From NCBI GenBank assembly GCA_019634955.1, contig JAHCAK010000026.1, forward strand, positions 1 to 64,000: 64,000 bases of DNA. Direction: 5' to 3'. How positions within the stretch are numbered: the first letter of the stretch is position 1; each line of letters begins with the position of its first letter. Of the stretch, positions 127 through 7,790 are shown in pieces. The notes under the pieces are model-generated. The model saw only the letters and a program-made list of their open reading frames with translations, was not told where the DNA came from and made no database searches. A program made the position numbers and the translations under genes. Source of the DNA: Burkholderiales bacterium (GTDB lineage Bacteria > Pseudomonadota > Gammaproteobacteria > Burkholderiales > Usitatibacteraceae).

Positions 127-132
127 TATAAT
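127..132 (+). promoter_or_regulatory. -10 hexamer directly before the kinase gene
   Basis: A consensus TATAAT lies 8 nt before the ATG at 141. No purine-rich ribosome binding site is visible in between and no good -35 lies 16-18 nt upstream. If transcription starts about 7 nt after the hexamer, the mRNA begins almost at the start codon, that is, leaderless. The rest of bases 1-126 shows no gene. Confidence 0.5.
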
Positions 133-140
133 CTGCCGCC

Positions 141-1421
141 ATGGATGCCATCGGCAAATACCAGGTCGTCCGCGAACTGGGCAGGGGTGCGACGGGCAAG
201 GTCTACCTGGCCACGGACCCGTTCGGCAACCGCCAGGTCGCGATCAAGGTGGCCTACCCCGAGGCGCTCAAGAGCACCGAGGACGGCGCGCTCTACAAGA
301 GCATGTTCCTCAACGAGGCGGCGCTCGCCGGCAAGCTCCACCACCCGCACATCGTGCAGATCTTCGACGCGGTGGTCGAGGAGGAATTCAGCTACATCGT
401 GATGGAGTTCGTGGAGGGCGGCACGCTCGAGAAGTTCTGCGAGGCCGACTCCCTCCTCGACCCGGCCGAGATCGCCGAGATCATCTTCAAGTGCGTGCGC
501 GCGCTCGCCTTCGCGAGCCGCCTGGGCCTCACGCACCGCGACATCAAGCCCGGCAACATCCTCCACGTCGACGGCACCGACATCAAGATCGCCGACTTCG
601 GCGCCTCCATCAACAAGGTGTCCGACCGCACGGTCATCACCAACGTGGGCTCGCCCGCCTACATGGCGCCGGAGCTCATCACCGGCGCCGCGCAGGCCAC
701 GGCCTCGACCGACATCTACGCGCTCGGCGTGGTGATGTACTACCTGCTGTCGGGGCGGCTGCCGTTCGCCGGCGCCAACACGATGAGCGTGATCTACCAG
801 ATCGTGAACACGGACCCGGAGCCCCCCGGCGCGCACCGCCAGGGCCTGCTGCCGGAGCTGGAGGCCATCACCCTCAAGGCGATGGCCAAGGACCCCGCGG
901 TGCGCTACGCCACCTGGGAGGAGTTCGGGCAGGACCTCGCCGAGGTGTGGAAGAAGCTGCACTCCGCCGGCGCGCGCGAGCAATCCGACACCGAGCGCTT
1001 CAACCTGTGCCGCGCGCTCTCCTTCTTCAAGGAGTTTCCCGAGAACGAGCTGTGGGAGGTCCTGCGCATCTCGAAATGGGCGAAGTTCCCGCCCAACACG
1101 GCCCTCATCAAGGAGGGCGACCACGGCGACTCGTTCTACGTCCTCGCCGGCGGCTACGTGCGCGTGACGCGCGGGAAGAAGACCCTGAGCGTGCTCTCCG
1201 CCGGGGACTGCTTCGGCGAGATGGCCTACCTCGCGCACAAGGACGCGCCGCACCGCTCGGCCACCGTCACCACGACCTCCGACTGCATCATCGTGAAGAT
1301 CCGCGCCGAGGACCTGCGCGCCTCCTCGCTCTCCTGCCGGCGCCTCTTCGACGAGCGCTTCCTCAACACCCTGGTGGAGCGGCTCGAGGCCGCCAACGAG
1401 CAGCTCGCGGTGATGTCCTGA
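141..1421 (+). CDS. Ser/Thr protein kinase with C-terminal cyclic-nucleotide-binding domain
   Basis: A 426-residue soluble protein. Residues 7-270 form a Hanks-type kinase: glycine loop GRGATGKV (14-21), ATP-anchoring lysine in VAIK (K36), catalytic HRDIKPGN (D134), metal-binding DFG (152-154) and APE (176-178). All key residues are present, so it should be active. Residues about 290-405 form a cNMP-binding domain whose phosphate-binding cassette keeps the FGE glutamate (358-360) and an RSAT arginine (R372), so nucleotide binding is plausible. The architecture resembles eukaryotic cyclic-nucleotide-dependent kinases, but with the sensor after the kinase. No membrane segment is present. Whether cAMP, cGMP or another ligand binds, and what the substrate is, cannot be read from the sequence. 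The gene stands alone and converges with the next one. Confidence 0.9.
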   Translation: MDAIGKYQVVRELGRGATGKVYLATDPFGNRQVAIKVAYPEALKSTEDGALYKSMFLNEAALAGKLHHPHIVQIFDAVVEEEFSYIVMEFVEGGTLEKFCEADSLLDPAEIAEIIFKCVRALAFASRLGLTHRDIKPGNILHVDGTDIKIADFGASINKVSDRTVITNVGSPAYMAPELITGAAQATASTDIYALGVVMYYLLSGRLPFAGANTMSVIYQIVNTDPEPPGAHRQGLLPELEAITLKAMAKDPAVRYATWEEFGQDLAEVWKKLHSAGAREQSDTERFNLCRALSFFKEFPENELWEVLRISKWAKFPPNTALIKEGDHGDSFYVLAGGYVRVTRGKKTLSVLSAGDCFGEMAYLAHKDAPHRSATVTTTSDCIIVKIRAEDLRASSLSCRRLFDERFLNTLVERLEAANEQLAVMS

Positions 1422-1425
1422 GGCG

Positions 1426-1914
1426 CTACGCGCCCAGCAGCCAGGCCGTCGCGAAGACGCCCACCATGAGGAAGGCGAGCGTGAGCTTCGCCACCGACCC
1501 CAGCACGATCCCGACCCAGGTGCCCAGCCCCGCCCGGCCGGCGTGAAGCAGCTCGCGGCGGGCCGAGAGCTCGCCCGCGACGGCGCCGAGGAAGGGGCCG
1601 AGGACGAGGCCCGGCAGCCCGAAGAAGATCCCGACCACGGCGCCGATGGTGGCGCCGAGGATGCCGCGCGGGCTGGCGCCCAGCTTCTTCGCCCCGAGGG
1701 CCGAGGCGACGAAGTCGGCGGCGACCGCGAGCGCCGTGAGCAAGCCGAGGATCGCGATCGTGAAGGCCCCCACGCGCGCGAACCCGTCCGCCCAGGCCGC
1801 GAGCGTGAGCCCGGTGAACACGAGGGCCACGCCGGGGAGCACGGGCAGCACGGTGCCGGCGAGGCCGACGACCACGAGGAGAACGGCGATGACCTGCCAG
1901 GCGAGGGGGTCCAT
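1426..1914 (-). CDS. DUF456 family membrane protein
   Basis: A 162-residue, very hydrophobic protein with about four to five predicted membrane segments and glycine-rich turns (PGVALVFTG, PGLVLGPFLGA), typical of the DUF456 family. The ATG at 1914 was chosen because the protein then begins directly with a hydrophobic helix; the open frame upstream is antisense to glcD and is not coding. Function is unknown in the family. The gene converges with the kinase gene (4 nt between stops) and is divergent from the glycolate oxidase operon. Confidence 0.8.
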   Translation of the reverse strand: MDPLAWQVIAVLLVVVGLAGTVLPVLPGVALVFTGLTLAAWADGFARVGAFTIAILGLLTALAVAADFVASALGAKKLGASPRGILGATIGAVVGIFFGLPGLVLGPFLGAVAGELSARRELLHAGRAGLGTWVGIVLGSVAKLTLAFLMVGVFATAWLLGA

Positions 1915-2007
1915 TTCGGGCGGGAAGTCGGTGGAAAGGGCTGTTACCGGCACGGGCCGGAAGGGCATTGGGACCATGCTATCGTATGGCGGTTCCCCCT
2001 TCCCGCC

Positions 2008-3495
2008 ATGAACGCGACTTCCCCCCCCGCCGCAACGCCCGAGCGCCAGGCGCAGGTGGCATCCGCGCTCGCGGCGCGGCTTCCCGCCCACGCGGTGCTC
2101 ACCGCGAAGGAGGACCTGCGGCCCTACGAATGCGACGGCCTGTCGGCGTACCGGCAGACGCCGCTCGTGGCCGCCCTGCCGGGCACCGTCGCGGAGGCCG
2201 CCGAGGTGCTGCGCGTGGCGCGCGAGACCGGCACGCCCGTGGTCGCGCGCGGCTCCGGCACGGGGCTCTCGGGCGGGGCGCTGCCGCTCGCCGACGGCAT
2301 CCTCCTCTCGCTCGGCAAGTTCAACCGCATCCTCGCCATCGACCCGCTCGCGCGCACGCTGCGCGCCCAGCCCGGCGTGCGAAACGCGCAGATCACCGAG
2401 GCCGCGGCCCCGCTGGGCCTCTACTACGCGCCGGACCCCTCCAGCCAGATCGCCTGCTCCATCGGCGGCAACGTGGCGGAGAACTCCGGCGGCGTGCACT
2501 GCCTCAAGTACGGGCTCACCGTGCACAACGTCCAGAAGGTGCGCGCGCTCACCATCGAGGGCGACGACGTCGGGATCGGGTCGGATGCGCTCGACGCCCC
2601 CGGCTACGACCTGCTCGCGCTGGCGCACGGCTCCGAGGGGCTGCTCGCCCTCGTCACCGAGGTCACGGTGAAGCTGCTGCCCAAGCCGCAGACGGCGCAG
2701 GTGGTGATGACCTCCTTCATGGACGTGGAGGCCGCCGGCGAGGCCGTGGCCGCCGTGATCGGCGCGGGCATCGTGCCCGCGGGTCTCGAGATGATGGACA
2801 AGCTCGCCACCGCCGCCGCCGAGGACTTCGTGCACGCCGGCTACGACCTGGAGGCGGAGGCGATCCTGCTCTGCGAGTCCGACGGCACGCCCGAGGAGGT
2901 GGCCGAGGAGATCGCCAAGATCACGGCCGTGATGCGCGAGGCCGGCTGCACGGCCTTCGCGGTGTCGGCGAGCGAGGCGGAGCGGCTGCGCTTCTGGTCC
3001 GGCCGCAAGGCCGCCTTCCCGGCCGTGGGGCGCATCTCGCCGGACTACTACTGCATCGACGGCTCCATCCCGCGCGGCGCGCTCTCGAAGGTGCTGCGGC
3101 GGATCGCCGAGCTCTCGGCGCACTACGGGCTGCGCTGCGCCAACGTCTTCCACGCGGGCGACGGGAACCTCCACCCGCTCATCCTCTACGACGCCAACGT
3201 CCCGGGCGAGTTCGAGAAGACGGAGGAGTTCGCGGGCGACATCCTCGACCTCTCCATCGAGGTGGGCGGCACCATCACCGGCGAGCACGGCGTGGGCGTG
3301 GAGAAGATCAGGCAGATGTGCACGCAGTTCCGCCCCGCGGAGCTGGCGCAGTTCCACGCCGTGAAGGCGGCGTTCGACCCGCAGGGCCTGCTGAACCCCG
3401 GCAAGGCGGTGCCGACCCTCAACCGCTGCGCCGACTACGGCGCGATGCGCGTGCACCGCGGCCAGCTGCCGCATCCGGACCTGCCGAGGTTCTAG
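2008..3495 (+). CDS. glcD: Glycolate oxidase subunit GlcD (FAD-linked oxidase)
   Basis: A 495-residue subunit expected to oxidise glycolate (or a related 2-hydroxyacid) to glyoxylate, passing electrons through the GlcE/GlcF partners to the quinone pool. It has an N-terminal PCMH-type FAD domain with RGSGTGLSGG (81-90) and the DPSSQ...GGNVAENSGG segment (143-162), and a C-terminal FAD-oxidase domain ending in GTITGEHGVG (about 421). The ATG at 2008 fits the family start; an open extension reaching back over the divergent gene is rejected. First gene of a co-directional glcD-glcD-like-glcE-glcF operon; 1 nt separates its stop from the next start. Confidence 0.92.
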   Translation: MNATSPPAATPERQAQVASALAARLPAHAVLTAKEDLRPYECDGLSAYRQTPLVAALPGTVAEAAEVLRVARETGTPVVARGSGTGLSGGALPLADGILLSLGKFNRILAIDPLARTLRAQPGVRNAQITEAAAPLGLYYAPDPSSQIACSIGGNVAENSGGVHCLKYGLTVHNVQKVRALTIEGDDVGIGSDALDAPGYDLLALAHGSEGLLALVTEVTVKLLPKPQTAQVVMTSFMDVEAAGEAVAAVIGAGIVPAGLEMMDKLATAAAEDFVHAGYDLEAEAILLCESDGTPEEVAEEIAKITAVMREAGCTAFAVSASEAERLRFWSGRKAAFPAVGRISPDYYCIDGSIPRGALSKVLRRIAELSAHYGLRCANVFHAGDGNLHPLILYDANVPGEFEKTEEFAGDILDLSIEVGGTITGEHGVGVEKIRQMCTQFRPAELAQFHAVKAAFDPQGLLNPGKAVPTLNRCADYGAMRVHRGQLPHPDLPRF

Positions 3496-3496
3496 C

Positions 3497-4954
3497 GTGA
3501 GCGCCGCCCGCGCCGAGGCCCTGGCCGCGCTCGCGGCCGTCCGCCCGCCGCTGGCGGTGGTGGCCGAGCCCGAGCGCCTGGCGGCCTACGAGATGGACGC
3601 CTACGTGCAGAAGCGCGAGACGCCGCTGGCCGCCGTGCTGCCGGAGGGCGAGGCGCAGGTGCAGGCCGTCGTGCGCGCGCTGGGGCGCCTCGCCGTGCCG
3701 GTGGTGACGCGCGGCGCGGGCACCGGCATCTCCGGCGGCGCGACGCCGCTCGCCGACGGCGTGATGCTCGTCGTCACGCGCATGCGCGCGATCCACGCCA
3801 TCGACGCCGCGGCGCGCCTGGCCACGGTGGACCCCGGCGTGCCCAACGCGCAGGTGACGGCCGCCGCCGAGGGCGCGGGGCTGTTCTTCGCGCCGGACCC
3901 CTCGAGCCAGGTCGTCTCCTCCATCGGCGGCAACGTGGCCGAGAACGCGGGCGGCATCCACTGCCTCAAGTACGGGCTCACGGTGCACAACGTGACGGGG
4001 CTTCGCGCGGTAGACGGCGACGGCGACCTCCTCGCGGTGGGCGGCGAGGCGCTCGATTCCCCGGGCTACGACCTGCTCGCGCTGCTGGCCGGGAGCGAGG
4101 GCAACCTGGGCGTCATCACGCGCGCGACGCTTCGCCTGCTGCCGCGCCCCGAGGTGACGGAGACGCTGCTGGCGGCGTTCGGCTCCGTGAAGGCCGGCGC
4201 GGAGGCGGTGAGCGCGATCATCGGCGCGGGCATCGTCCCGGCGGCCCTCGAGATGATGGACCGCGTGGTGATCGACGCCTGCGAGCGCTACATGGCGCTG
4301 GGGCTGCCGAAGTCCGAGGCTTTGCTGCTGGTCGAAGTGGACGGCGGCACCGAGGAGGCACGCGAGTCGCGCGCGGCGGTCGAGCGCATCCTCGCGGCGT
4401 GCGGCGCCACGGAAGTGCGCGTCGCGAAGGACGACGAGGAGCGCGCGAAGCTGTGGAAGTCGCGCAAGGGCGCCTTCGCCGCGCTCGCCTCGGTGCTGCC
4501 GGACTACTACACGATGGACGGCTCGATCCCGCGCCGGGCGCTGCCCGAGGTCCTGGAGCAGGTCTACGCGCTGGGCCGCGAGTACGGCATGGTGATCGGC
4601 AACGTCTTCCACGCCGGCGACGGCAACATCCACCCCTGCATCTTCTACGACGCGGCGAAGGCGGGCGAGCTGGAGCGCAGCGAGGAGCTGGGCGGCAGGA
4701 TCCTCGAGCTCTGCATCGACCACGGCGGCACCATCACCGGCGAGCACGGCGTGGGCCTCGAGAAGCTCCGGCAGATGTGCCTGCAGTTCCGCGACGGCGA
4801 GATCGCGGCCTTCCACGCGGTGAAGGCCGCCTTCGACCCGGCGGGCATCCTCAATCCCGGCAAGGCCGTCCCCACGCTCAAGCGCTGCGCCGAGTGGGGC
4901 GGCATGCACGTGCGCGGCGGCCGCGTCCCGCGCCCCGACATCCCGAGGTTCTGA
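3497..4954 (+). CDS. Second GlcD-like FAD-binding oxidase
   Basis: A 485-residue paralogue of the preceding GlcD with the same two domains: FAD-binding RGAGTGISGG (72-81), DPSSQ...GGNVAENAGG, and a C-terminal GTITGEHGVG. It begins at a GTG one base after the glcD stop, so translation is probably coupled. Both copies keep the FAD-binding features, so neither looks degenerate. The pair may form a heteromeric enzyme or serve two 2-hydroxyacids such as glycolate and D-lactate. Followed after 7 nt by glcE. Family assignment is firm; substrate is inferred from the operon. Confidence 0.88.
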   Translation: MSAARAEALAALAAVRPPLAVVAEPERLAAYEMDAYVQKRETPLAAVLPEGEAQVQAVVRALGRLAVPVVTRGAGTGISGGATPLADGVMLVVTRMRAIHAIDAAARLATVDPGVPNAQVTAAAEGAGLFFAPDPSSQVVSSIGGNVAENAGGIHCLKYGLTVHNVTGLRAVDGDGDLLAVGGEALDSPGYDLLALLAGSEGNLGVITRATLRLLPRPEVTETLLAAFGSVKAGAEAVSAIIGAGIVPAALEMMDRVVIDACERYMALGLPKSEALLLVEVDGGTEEARESRAAVERILAACGATEVRVAKDDEERAKLWKSRKGAFAALASVLPDYYTMDGSIPRRALPEVLEQVYALGREYGMVIGNVFHAGDGNIHPCIFYDAAKAGELERSEELGGRILELCIDHGGTITGEHGVGLEKLRQMCLQFRDGEIAAFHAVKAAFDPAGILNPGKAVPTLKRCAEWGGMHVRGGRVPRPDIPRF

Positions 4955-4961
4955 GAGCACC

Positions 4962-6020
4962 ATGGCCCACGACTTCATCAAGGACACCTGCGAGCGCGTG
5001 AAGGACCACGCCTCGCGCAAGGCGCCGCTCGCGATCCGCGGCGGCGGCACCAAGGCATTCCTCGGCGCGCTGCCGGCCGGCGAGCCCCTCGAGGTCGCGG
5101 GCTACGCGGGCATCGTCGCCTACGAGCCGCGCGAGCTGGTGCTCGTCGTGCGCGCGGGAACCCGCCTCGCGGAAGTCGAGGCGGCGCTCGCGGCCGAGGG
5201 GCAGGCGCTCGCCTTCGAGCCGCCGCGCTTCGGGGAGGCGGCCACCATCGGCGGCACGGTCGCCTGCAACCTCTCCGGGCCGAGGCGCCCCTACGCCGGC
5301 GCGGCGCGGGATTTCGTCCTCGGCGCGCGCATCGTGAACGGCCGCGGCGAGGACCTCTCCTTCGGCGGGCGCGTCATCAAGAACGTGGCCGGCTACGACG
5401 TCTCGCGCCTCATGGCGGGCGCCTACGGCACGCTGGGCGTCGTCACCGAGCTCTCCTTCAAGGTGCTGCCGAGGCCGCCGGCGGAGGCGACGCTCGCCTT
5501 CGAGATGGACGAGCCGGCGATGATCGCGGCCGTCAACCAGTGGGCCGGCCAGCCGCTGCCGCTGTCGGCGACGGCGTGGGAGTCGGGCGTGCTGCGCGTG
5601 CGGCTCTCCGGCGCGGCGAGCGCGGTGGCGGCGGCGCGCGCGAAGCTGGGTGGCGCCGAGGTGGCCGACGGGCCGGCGTACTGGGAAGCGCTGCGCGAGC
5701 ACCGCCTGCCGTTCTTCGATCCGGCGAGGCCGCTCTGGCGGCTTTCCGTCGCGCAGACCGCCGCGCCCATCGCGGCCGGCCATCCGCAGCTCGTCGAGTG
5801 GGGCGCGGGCCTGCGCTGGGTGAGCGGCGATCTCGGGGCCGCGCGGGCCCGCGAGCTCGCCGCCGCCGCGCGCGGCCACGCGACGCTCTTCCGGGGCGGC
5901 GACCGCGCGGCCGGCGTGTTCCACCCCCTCGACCCGGCGATCGCCAAGATCCACCGCCGGCTCAAGGAGGCCTTCGACCCCGCCGGGGTCCTCAACCCCG
6001 GCCGCATGGACAACTTCTGA
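4962..6020 (+). CDS. glcE: Glycolate oxidase subunit GlcE
   Basis: A 352-residue FAD-binding subunit of glycolate oxidase. The N-terminal half carries the PCMH-type motif RGGGTK (26-31) and GGTVACNLSGP; the C-terminal half is shorter and more divergent than in GlcD, as usual for GlcE. It ends with the family's FDPAGVLNPGRM segment. It lies between the second glcD-like gene and glcF in a tightly spaced operon and should work with GlcD and GlcF as a membrane-associated complex. Start ATG is preceded by a GAGAG stretch. Confidence 0.9.
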   Translation: MAHDFIKDTCERVKDHASRKAPLAIRGGGTKAFLGALPAGEPLEVAGYAGIVAYEPRELVLVVRAGTRLAEVEAALAAEGQALAFEPPRFGEAATIGGTVACNLSGPRRPYAGAARDFVLGARIVNGRGEDLSFGGRVIKNVAGYDVSRLMAGAYGTLGVVTELSFKVLPRPPAEATLAFEMDEPAMIAAVNQWAGQPLPLSATAWESGVLRVRLSGAASAVAAARAKLGGAEVADGPAYWEALREHRLPFFDPARPLWRLSVAQTAAPIAAGHPQLVEWGAGLRWVSGDLGAARARELAAAARGHATLFRGGDRAAGVFHPLDPAIAKIHRRLKEAFDPAGVLNPGRMDNF

Positions 6021-6029
6021 CCGACCGCG

Positions 6030-7262
6030 ATGCAAACCAACCTCGCCGACTGGATCAAGGACACGCCCGAGGGCCGCGAGGCCGACGCGATCCTGCGCAA
6101 GTGCGTGCACTGCGGCTTCTGCCTCGCCACCTGCCCCACCTACAACCTGCTGGGCGACGAGCTGGACAGCCCGCGCGGGCGCATCTACCTGATGAAGCAG
6201 GCCCTCGAGGGCGCGCCCGTGACGGCGAAGACGCAGGTGCACCTCGACCGCTGCCTCACCTGCCGCGCCTGCGAGACCACCTGCCCCTCGGGCGTGCAGT
6301 ACGGCCGCCTCGTGGACATCGGGCGCGAGGTGGTCGAGAAGAAGGTGCCGCGGGGCTTCGCGGACGCGGCCTTCCGGCGCCTGCTGCGGTTCGCGTTCCT
6401 CTCCGGGCCGCTCTTCGCGTTCGGCGTGGCGATGGGCCGGCTCGTGAAGCCGCTGCTGCCGGCTTCTCTCGCGAGGCAGGTGCCGCCGAAGCGCGAGGCC
6501 GGCGCGTGGCCCGCGGCGAGGCACGCGCGGAGGATGATCGTGCTGGACGGCTGCGTGCAGCCGGCGCTCGCGCCCGGCATCAACGCGGCCACGGCGCGCG
6601 TGCTGGACCGCCTCGGCATCTCGCTCGTGCGCGTGCCGCAGGCGGGCTGCTGCGGGGCGATCGAATACCACCTGAACGCGCAGGACGCCGCGCTCGACCG
6701 CATCCGCCGCCAGGTCGACGCGTGGTGGCCGCACGTCGAGGCGGGCGCGGAGGCGATCGTCGTCACCGCGAGCGGCTGCGGCACGATGGTGCAGGACTAC
6801 GCGCACCTGCTCGCGGGCGACCCGGCCTACGCGCAGAAGGCCGCGCGCATCACGGCGCTCGCGAAGGACGTGGGGCAGGTGGTGGCCGCGGAGCGCGAAT
6901 CGCTCGCCAAGCTGCTGGCGGGCCGCGCGCCGGTCGCGGAGCCCGTGGCCTACCACGCACCCTGCAGCCTGCAGCACGGCCTGAAGCAGAAGGGCGTCGT
7001 CGAGGCGGTCCTGCGGGAGGCGGGATTCACCCTCACGCCGGTCCCCGACGCGCACCTGTGCTGCGGCTCTGCGGGCACCTACTCGATCCTGCAGCCGGAA
7101 CTTTCCGGCCAGCTCCTCGCCAGCAAGGTGAAGGCCCTCGAGTCCGGCAATCCGTCGGCGCTCTGCACCGCCAACATCGGCTGCCTGCTGCACATCGAAT
7201 CGGGGGCCTCGAAGCCGATGGCCCACTGGATCGAGCTGCTGGACCGGCGCCTGGCCGCCTGA
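6030..7262 (+). CDS. glcF: Glycolate oxidase iron-sulfur subunit GlcF
   Basis: A 410-residue electron-transfer subunit. Two ferredoxin-type [4Fe-4S] motifs are visible, C25-x2-C28-x2-C31-x3-C35 and C75-x2-C78-x2-C81-x3-C85, followed by two CCG domains (QAGCCGAIEYH and LCCGSAGTYS), which usually hold a further cluster or the quinone-reductase site. It passes electrons from the flavin subunits towards the quinone pool. Last gene of the glc operon, 9 nt after glcE. Confidence 0.93.
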   Translation: MQTNLADWIKDTPEGREADAILRKCVHCGFCLATCPTYNLLGDELDSPRGRIYLMKQALEGAPVTAKTQVHLDRCLTCRACETTCPSGVQYGRLVDIGREVVEKKVPRGFADAAFRRLLRFAFLSGPLFAFGVAMGRLVKPLLPASLARQVPPKREAGAWPAARHARRMIVLDGCVQPALAPGINAATARVLDRLGISLVRVPQAGCCGAIEYHLNAQDAALDRIRRQVDAWWPHVEAGAEAIVVTASGCGTMVQDYAHLLAGDPAYAQKAARITALAKDVGQVVAAERESLAKLLAGRAPVAEPVAYHAPCSLQHGLKQKGVVEAVLREAGFTLTPVPDAHLCCGSAGTYSILQPELSGQLLASKVKALESGNPSALCTANIGCLLHIESGASKPMAHWIELLDRRLAA

Positions 7263-7364
7263 GCCGGGCCTTTCGGCAGGGGGTTTGACCTGCGTGAAAC
7301 CCGCGGGCGCCGCCCCGGGCGACCATGGGACCGTGGGCGCCTGCCCCGGGAAGGAGGTCCGGAA

Positions 7365-7790
7365 ATGAAGAAGCTGCTGCTGCCCGTCGACGGCTCGCCC
7401 AGCTCCCGCCGGGCGGCCGAGCTGGCGGTGCGCCTGCTGTCCGGCAAGCCGGGCGCGCAGGTGCTGCTCACCAACGCCCAGTCGCCGGTGATGGCCTGGG
7501 AGATCTCGCCGCACGTGACCGCCGAGATGGTGAACCGCATCCACGAGAAGGCGGGGCGGGAGGCCGTGCGCGCGGCGCGCGAGGTGCTCGACGCGGCCGG
7601 CATCGCCTGCGAGGAGCACCTGCTCGTGGGCGAGCCCGCCGAGATCATCGCGCGCGTGGCCGAGGAGCAGCGCGTGGACGGCATCGTGATGGGGACGCGG
7701 GGCCTGGGGCCGGTGAAGGGCCTCGTCCTGGGGTCGGTCGCGAACAAGGTGATCCACCTCGCGGAGGTTCCCGTCACCCTCGTGAAGTAG
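7365..7790 (+). CDS. Universal stress protein, UspA family
   Basis: A 141-residue single-domain Usp protein. It starts with the usual KKLLLPVDGSP strand-loop and carries the ATP-binding motif G-x2-G-x9-G-S (GTRG...GS near residues 110-125), so it is likely of the ATP-binding Usp type. A near-perfect ribosome binding site, AAGGAGGT, lies 8 nt before the ATG, suggesting strong translation. It is followed after 4 nt by an MgtE-like gene and then a P-type ATPase, an ion and stress module. Exact role unknown. Confidence 0.9.
   Translation: MKKLLLPVDGSPSSRRAAELAVRLLSGKPGAQVLLTNAQSPVMAWEISPHVTAEMVNRIHEKAGREAVRAAREVLDAAGIACEEHLLVGEPAEIIARVAEEQRVDGIVMGTRGLGPVKGLVLGSVANKVIHLAEVPVTLVK

Follow-up and report, generated by a model that had tools for sequence, protein, structure and literature searches.

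PKG carries tandem cyclic-nucleotide-binding (CNB) domains at its N-terminus followed by a C-terminal AGC-type kinase, and PKA is built from separate subunits, with tandem CNBs and an inhibitor sequence. Kinases of the PknB/StkP and PASTA types have a transmembrane segment together with PASTA repeats. Most known effects of cAMP in bacteria run via CRP-type transcription factors, and two bacterial enzymes joined to a CNB, Bd1971 of Bdellovibrio (an EAL enzyme) and mycobacterial Pat (an acetyltransferase), are also cAMP-controlled.

In a brief description, Kannan et al. (2007; PMC2246266) listed kinases among the domains attached to bacterial CNBs, in the "Other_bacterial" class, and suggested a role of the CNB in protein phosphorylation. 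As far as that description goes, the kinase-CNB fusion is an already known kind of architecture (PMC2246266). The CNB is also named among the domains common to kinases of Planctomycetota and eukaryotes (PMC11032199), PP2C phosphatases with a C-terminal cNMP domain are mentioned for myxobacteria (PMC2887360), and cNMP_binding appears among the domains of bacterial PP2C proteins (PMC12088040). By a word search, the text of a review of bacterial Hanks kinases (PMC6213207) does not contain "cAMP", and contains "cyclic" once, about PKA. Among the matches listed from the open-licence literature, we found no experiment on a bacterial kinase-CNB protein or on its control by a cyclic nucleotide.

The kinase-CNB protein described here is encoded in a 64-kb window (the whole stretch of DNA analysed) that forms the start of contig 19 in a draft genome of 3.86 Mb. 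Like PKG, it has a CNB and a Ser/Thr kinase in one chain, and PKG is among the best solved relatives of its CNB profile. It does not belong to the PKGs, however: the kinase comes first and the CNB second, the reversed order already remarked on in the first-pass annotation, the CNB is single where PKG has two or more, the kinase is closest to PknB, and the Glu-Arg spacing of the phosphate-binding cassette is 12 instead of 9. With PKA it has the Glu/Arg cassette in common and would share the principle of a CNB-controlled kinase, whereas neither a division into subunits nor a tandem of CNBs is evident, and no PKA-type inhibitor sequence was apparent by eye in the variable linker of the family alignment. 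The kinase domain resembles PknB/StkP (a Foldseek search with the full-length model placed PknB structures first, the best alignment showing 36% identity to PknB), but hydropathy gives no membrane span and a CNB is present instead. Bd1971 (matches of 3e-14 to 6e-13) and Pat (model match of 1e-4) are likewise bacterial enzymes joined to a CNB, yet their enzyme domains are other than a kinase. The "Other_bacterial" fusions, to judge from their brief description, have in common with our protein a kinase attached to a bacterial CNB (PMC2246266).

The gene and its two domains

Table 1. Coordinates of the kinase-CNB gene and its features in the window.
Feature	Position	Strand	Evidence or remark
Likely -10 element, TATAAT	127..132	+	Ends 9 nt ahead of the A in the kinase-CNB start codon
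Kinase-CNB gene	141..1421	+	ORF open for 426 aa; dN/dS
Hanks/PknB-type kinase domain, residues 4-270	150..950	+	PF00069; best PDB matches are PknB (sequence, predicted fold)
HRD catalytic loop motif, residues 132-134	534..542	+	Invariant in 154/154 aligned proteins
Activation segment from DFG to PE, residues 152-178, including Thr164	594..674	+	Conservation of Thr164
Variable linker, residues 271-285	951..995	+	Mostly poorly conserved, partly gapped; pLDDT <50 at 277-279
CNB domain and flanking helices, residues 286-426	996..1418	+	PF00027; domain model; profile closest to PKG, PKA-R
Phosphate-binding cassette FGEMAYLAHKDAPHRSATV, residues 358-376	1212..1268	+	Glu-Arg stretch 3 residues longer than in PKA/PKG

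Long antiparallel and shadow ORFs are present at this locus. The reading frame at 141-1421 on the forward strand is nevertheless settled by the domain scores, a third-position GC of 0.98 and the dN/dS ratios, which also rule out a chance ORF in GC-rich DNA. Compared with three orthologues of 88-91% protein identity, the full gene has a dN/dS of ~0.14-0.19 (0.044/0.292, 0.057/0.415 and 0.075/0.388; dN 0.044-0.075, dS 0.292-0.415), and dN is well below dS in the kinase part and in the CNB part, each taken separately. Purifying selection acts on both domains.

The contig begins 140 bp before the gene and thereby truncates its upstream context. A truncation of the N-terminus by the contig start was ruled out, as the ATG is at the same place in close orthologues and the kinase domain is whole. 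This position and the Glu-Arg spacing of 12 instead of 9 are features beyond those noted in the first-pass annotation. The TATAAT of Table 1 is one of only two in the 64-kb window on either strand. Relative to the ATG, the hexamer sits at -12 to -15 in the window and in four further orthologues of the same genus, as well as in a fifth, partial one (locus L075) and in two relatives of another genus (L096, which is strain GR16-43, and L097). L093, where it lies at -34, is an exception, and it was not found upstream of the orthologues in L094 and L095. This motif suggests that the kinase-CNB gene may have its own promoter and a nearly leaderless mRNA.

The Pfam profile Pkinase (PF00069) matches residues 7-224 (E 6.4e-50, 170.4 bits vs a cut-off of 31.7), and cNMP_binding (PF00027) matches residues 315-393 (E 1.4e-17, 63.9 bits vs 27.5); with scores so far above the cut-offs, neither call is due to chance. 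The catalytic set is complete (K36, E59, H132-R133-D134, N139, D152), and with the full complement of Lys, Glu, HRD, Asn and DFG Asp the protein belongs to the Hanks-type Ser/Thr kinases. Its C-terminal part belongs to the cNMP-binding domains by profile score, CNB fold and the cassette Glu and Arg. The intact Hanks kinase followed by a cNMP domain in one chain, with preserved FGE and RSAT residues (F358-G359-E360 and R372-S373-A374-T375), was thus read correctly from the sequence at first pass. So, it seems, was the soluble nature of the chain: the highest 19-residue Kyte-Doolittle mean across the protein is only 1.31, which makes a membrane span unlikely, and the protein is apparently soluble. 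The PASTA kinase model NF033483 reaches 244.4 bits, over the kinase part only and below its curated cut-off of 450, so that the protein falls outside this family. Matches to 34 PADLOC families were also obtained, including the anti-phage kinase PD-T4-6; the best 25 of the 34 end by residue 287, within the kinase part, and, with the neighbouring genes judged by eye, identity with PD-T4-6 was provisionally set aside as probable kinase-domain similarity.

The full-length model has a mean pLDDT of 86.8 and is weak at residues 161-165 (activation loop) and 277-279 (linker); because its pTM is only 0.65, the interface between kinase and CNB is not reliable. The CNB modelled alone reaches a pLDDT of 90.0 and a pTM of 0.82, with lower confidence at the cassette (10-residue block means of 72 in the full-length model and 69 in the CNB alone). 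It superposes on CNB proteins, including cAMP-bound ones (best 50 rows: Z 16.6-18.7, rmsd 1.5-2.7, 121-139 residues aligned). The best match is 3gyd (Z 18.7, rmsd 1.5, 138 aligned). The PycTIR domain 8jsk, with bound cUMP, scores close to it (Z 18.6, rmsd 2.1, 137 aligned), and CRP-type proteins are also at the top of these best 50 rows, the leading ones being tied within 1. In a profile search, the best solved relatives of the CNB were PKG, PKA regulatory subunits and Epac, with the bacterial Bd1971 CNB behind.

Distribution of the family and length of the cassette

A peptide-pattern scan over one genome per species returned 563 stretches, 532 of which encode a relative at E <= 1e-3, not necessarily with both domains, and the best 80 loci were used. 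Going by record titles, most come from beta- and gammaproteobacteria, three from Desulfobacterales and one from Nitrospirae; the nearest relatives are betaproteobacterial MAGs, one Pseudomonadota MAG and the complete genome of strain GR16-43, which has at least two family members. The three Desulfobacterales loci (L083, L084, L085) also contain an adjacent second kinase, whose match to the query is confined to the kinase part. Of the 80 loci, 22 contain two kinase-CNB genes, the second one being cut by the locus end in one case. Both Pfam domains (PF00069 and PF00027) are found in 60/60 members scanned.

Whole-genome searches gave matches at E <= 1e-60 in 39/61 relatives' genomes with our own included (38/60 without it), one of them (G033) over residues 113-423 only. 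In a class-wide sample, 42/274 genomes match at E <= 1e-75 (41/273 without our own); the matches listed cover nearly the whole protein, and one of them (in G077) has an internal stop codon. Our own genome holds 20 matches to the protein, 13 of them covering the kinase part, and among its genes is a second full-length copy of 46% identity (contig C17, 6679-7929). With 38/60 relatives, 41/273 class genomes and a second copy of its own, the layout is common rather than rare. The first-pass remark that such a mode is rarely shown in proteobacteria therefore stands for experiments, of which we found none among the matches listed from the open-licence literature, and fails for the layout, which proteobacterial genomes commonly encode.

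The loci yielded 121 proteins, 114 of them distinct once duplicates were removed (query included), and none of these varies at the catalytic residues or at G359, E360, M361 or R372. Six peptide patterns served to find the 80 loci; one of them includes the cassette (DCFGEMAY), and the set is therefore biased for the Glu. Because of this pattern we added a control of 40 distant homologues that originate from the whole-protein search rather than the motif search; they are 40 of the 69 class-wide matches outside our own genome, chosen by hand down the list, hence non-random, and mostly from different genomes. Across all 154 proteins (114 and 40 control), the kinase K, E, HRD, N and D and the cassette G and E are kept in 154/154, and the cassette Arg in 153/154, the exception being one distant homologue with Ser. 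The residue after this Arg is Ser or Thr in 139/154.

Glu360 and Arg372 are 12 positions apart, compared with 9 in the consensus motifs given for PKA and PKG (PMC2246266); the protein thus departs from the PKA/PKG-type cassette in a spacing that is not a requirement of the Pfam family. Among the 154 homologues the spacing is 11 in 92, 12 in 9, 13 in 1, 10 in 3 and 9 in 49, and of the 40 distant ones, 39 have a spacing of 9 and one has 10. In profile alignments to solved PKGs, the gap falls between Glu and Arg, and the Arg is paired in 3/4 CNB domains of each, domain 3 (the fourth listed) being without a clear match at this residue. Single-sequence alignment pairs the Arg with that of a yeast PKA subunit and leaves one PKG domain off by one residue. 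On a midpoint-rooted FastTree of the 154 homologues, cassette length takes 3 changes by parsimony, whereas 37 or more are needed in 200 label shuffles, and the last common ancestor of the long cassettes has 104 tips, 102 long and two with a spacing of 10. On this tree the long cassette has arisen essentially once, in one largely betaproteobacterial clade.

Candidate ligands and control of the kinase

Six matches to the class III cyclase profile PF00211 are present in the own genome, all above cut-off (best 2.5e-58), and a profile search of the same genome gave no match to the class I cyclase PF01295. The best class III cyclase reads EKIKTIGD and YDMWGDTVN, in which we take the Lys and Asp to be those marking adenylate cyclases. 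With class III cyclases encoded in the genome, the CNB most likely has cAMP as its ligand. The genome also holds 22 cNMP-binding-domain matches, and PP2C-type phosphatase matches at two places, neither on the window contig.

From the architecture, the near-invariant residues and the class III cyclases, a direct coupling of cAMP or cGMP to phosphorylation, as proposed at first pass, is plausible, although the cassette is longer than that of PKA and PKG. We consider it probable, with some reserve, that the protein is a soluble, active one-chain PknB-type Ser/Thr kinase whose activity is set by its C-terminal CNB on binding a 3',5'-cyclic mononucleotide, most likely cAMP. The class III cyclases of the cell would make cAMP, which would bind to the CNB and shift the helices flanking its barrel (~283-310 and 397-425), separated from the preceding kinase C-lobe by a short linker; this shift would relieve or impose inhibition of the kinase in cis, and Thr164 would be an autophosphorylation site.

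The CNB might instead bind another ligand (cUMP, cCMP, a nucleoside, or only cGMP), the long cassette reflecting a changed specificity in the clade, which we regard as unlikely. A spacing of 11-13 in 102/154 homologues, nearly all from one ancestor (102/104 tips), would fit such a change, as would the Ser or Thr that 139/154 carry after the Arg, a residue compatible with cGMP, and the place of the cUMP-bound 8jsk near the top of the structural matches, level with CRP-type domains. There is also a precedent in the trypanosome PKA, described as cyclic-nucleotide-independent and answering to nucleosides (PMC6440977, PMC10959531). However, the two residues holding the cyclic nucleotide, Glu and Arg, are retained, the insertion between them may only lengthen a surface loop, and the best class III cyclase looks adenylate-type in a search that covered classes III and I. 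We judge quite improbable a CNB that is mainly a dimerisation or docking module, with the kinase run by autophosphorylation or partners rather than by a cyclic nucleotide. The helix after the barrel (397-425 in the full-length model) is indeed long, with F403, F407, R414 and L415 in 112-113/114 proteins, and the equivalent helix of CRP makes the dimer; Thr164 is moreover kept in 111/114 and 142/154 homologues (absent in 12/154). For pure docking, though, one would not expect the cassette Glu to be conserved in all 154 proteins and the Arg in all but one.

If a kinase gated by cAMP is indeed what this gene encodes, it would provide a second cAMP route, straight to protein phosphorylation, and a compact, soluble and widespread minimal model of a CNB gating a kinase in a single chain. 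The protein is a good candidate for a simple, single-chain counterpart of protein kinase A from animals, and with a large family and constant key residues, the study of a few members would answer for many species. It is very doubtful, in our estimate, that the long-cassette CNB of the largely betaproteobacterial clade responds to a non-classical ligand (e.g., cUMP, cCMP or a nucleoside), or that it senses cAMP through a novel allosteric geometry; were it so, the clade would possess a direct messenger-to-phosphorylation switch in bacteria, independent of CRP.

Gene neighbourhood

The neighbouring genes gave little indication of function. Gene calls around the kinase-CNB loci came from a base-composition heuristic and include some wrong-strand ORFs, and only recognised clusters were used, with names given by eye. 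No cyclase or phosphatase gene was recognised by eye in the 25 largest neighbourhood clusters. A formate-tetrahydrofolate ligase gene lies upstream of the kinase-CNB gene in seven loci of the orthologue clade, and a rhodanese-type, mnmH-like gene occurs at 17 loci of the C17-type paralogues. A RidA-like gene is found at 13 Gallionellaceae-type loci (L035, L038, L041, L042, L045, L046, L049, L051, L052, L054, L064, L071 and L080), many with recG; in L080 it sits between both kinase-CNB copies (7149-7535). A recG-like gene is located downstream in 17 loci of this RidA/Gallionellaceae type.

The ligase of our own genome (a PF01268 match) is encoded away from the window contig, on C58, with a folD-like gene after it, so that its linkage to the kinase-CNB gene is not general. 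At this locus (L139; C58, 8000-15621), folD-like and EamA-like genes, named by eye, occupy positions 3064-4918 downstream of the ligase, where close relatives carry the kinase-CNB gene. Their third-position GC is 0.74 and 0.71, respectively, vs 0.99 for the ligase, a contrast that would fit an insertion of foreign DNA or a mixed assembly.

Downstream of the kinase-CNB gene, the forward strand of the window carries two ORFs for GlcD-like FAD-linked oxidases (1543-3495, with the true start inside, and 3497-4954), followed by GlcE-like (4962-6020) and GlcF-like (6030-7262) ORFs. The stretch at 1543-7262 is probably a cluster for glycolate oxidase in which the D subunit is duplicated.
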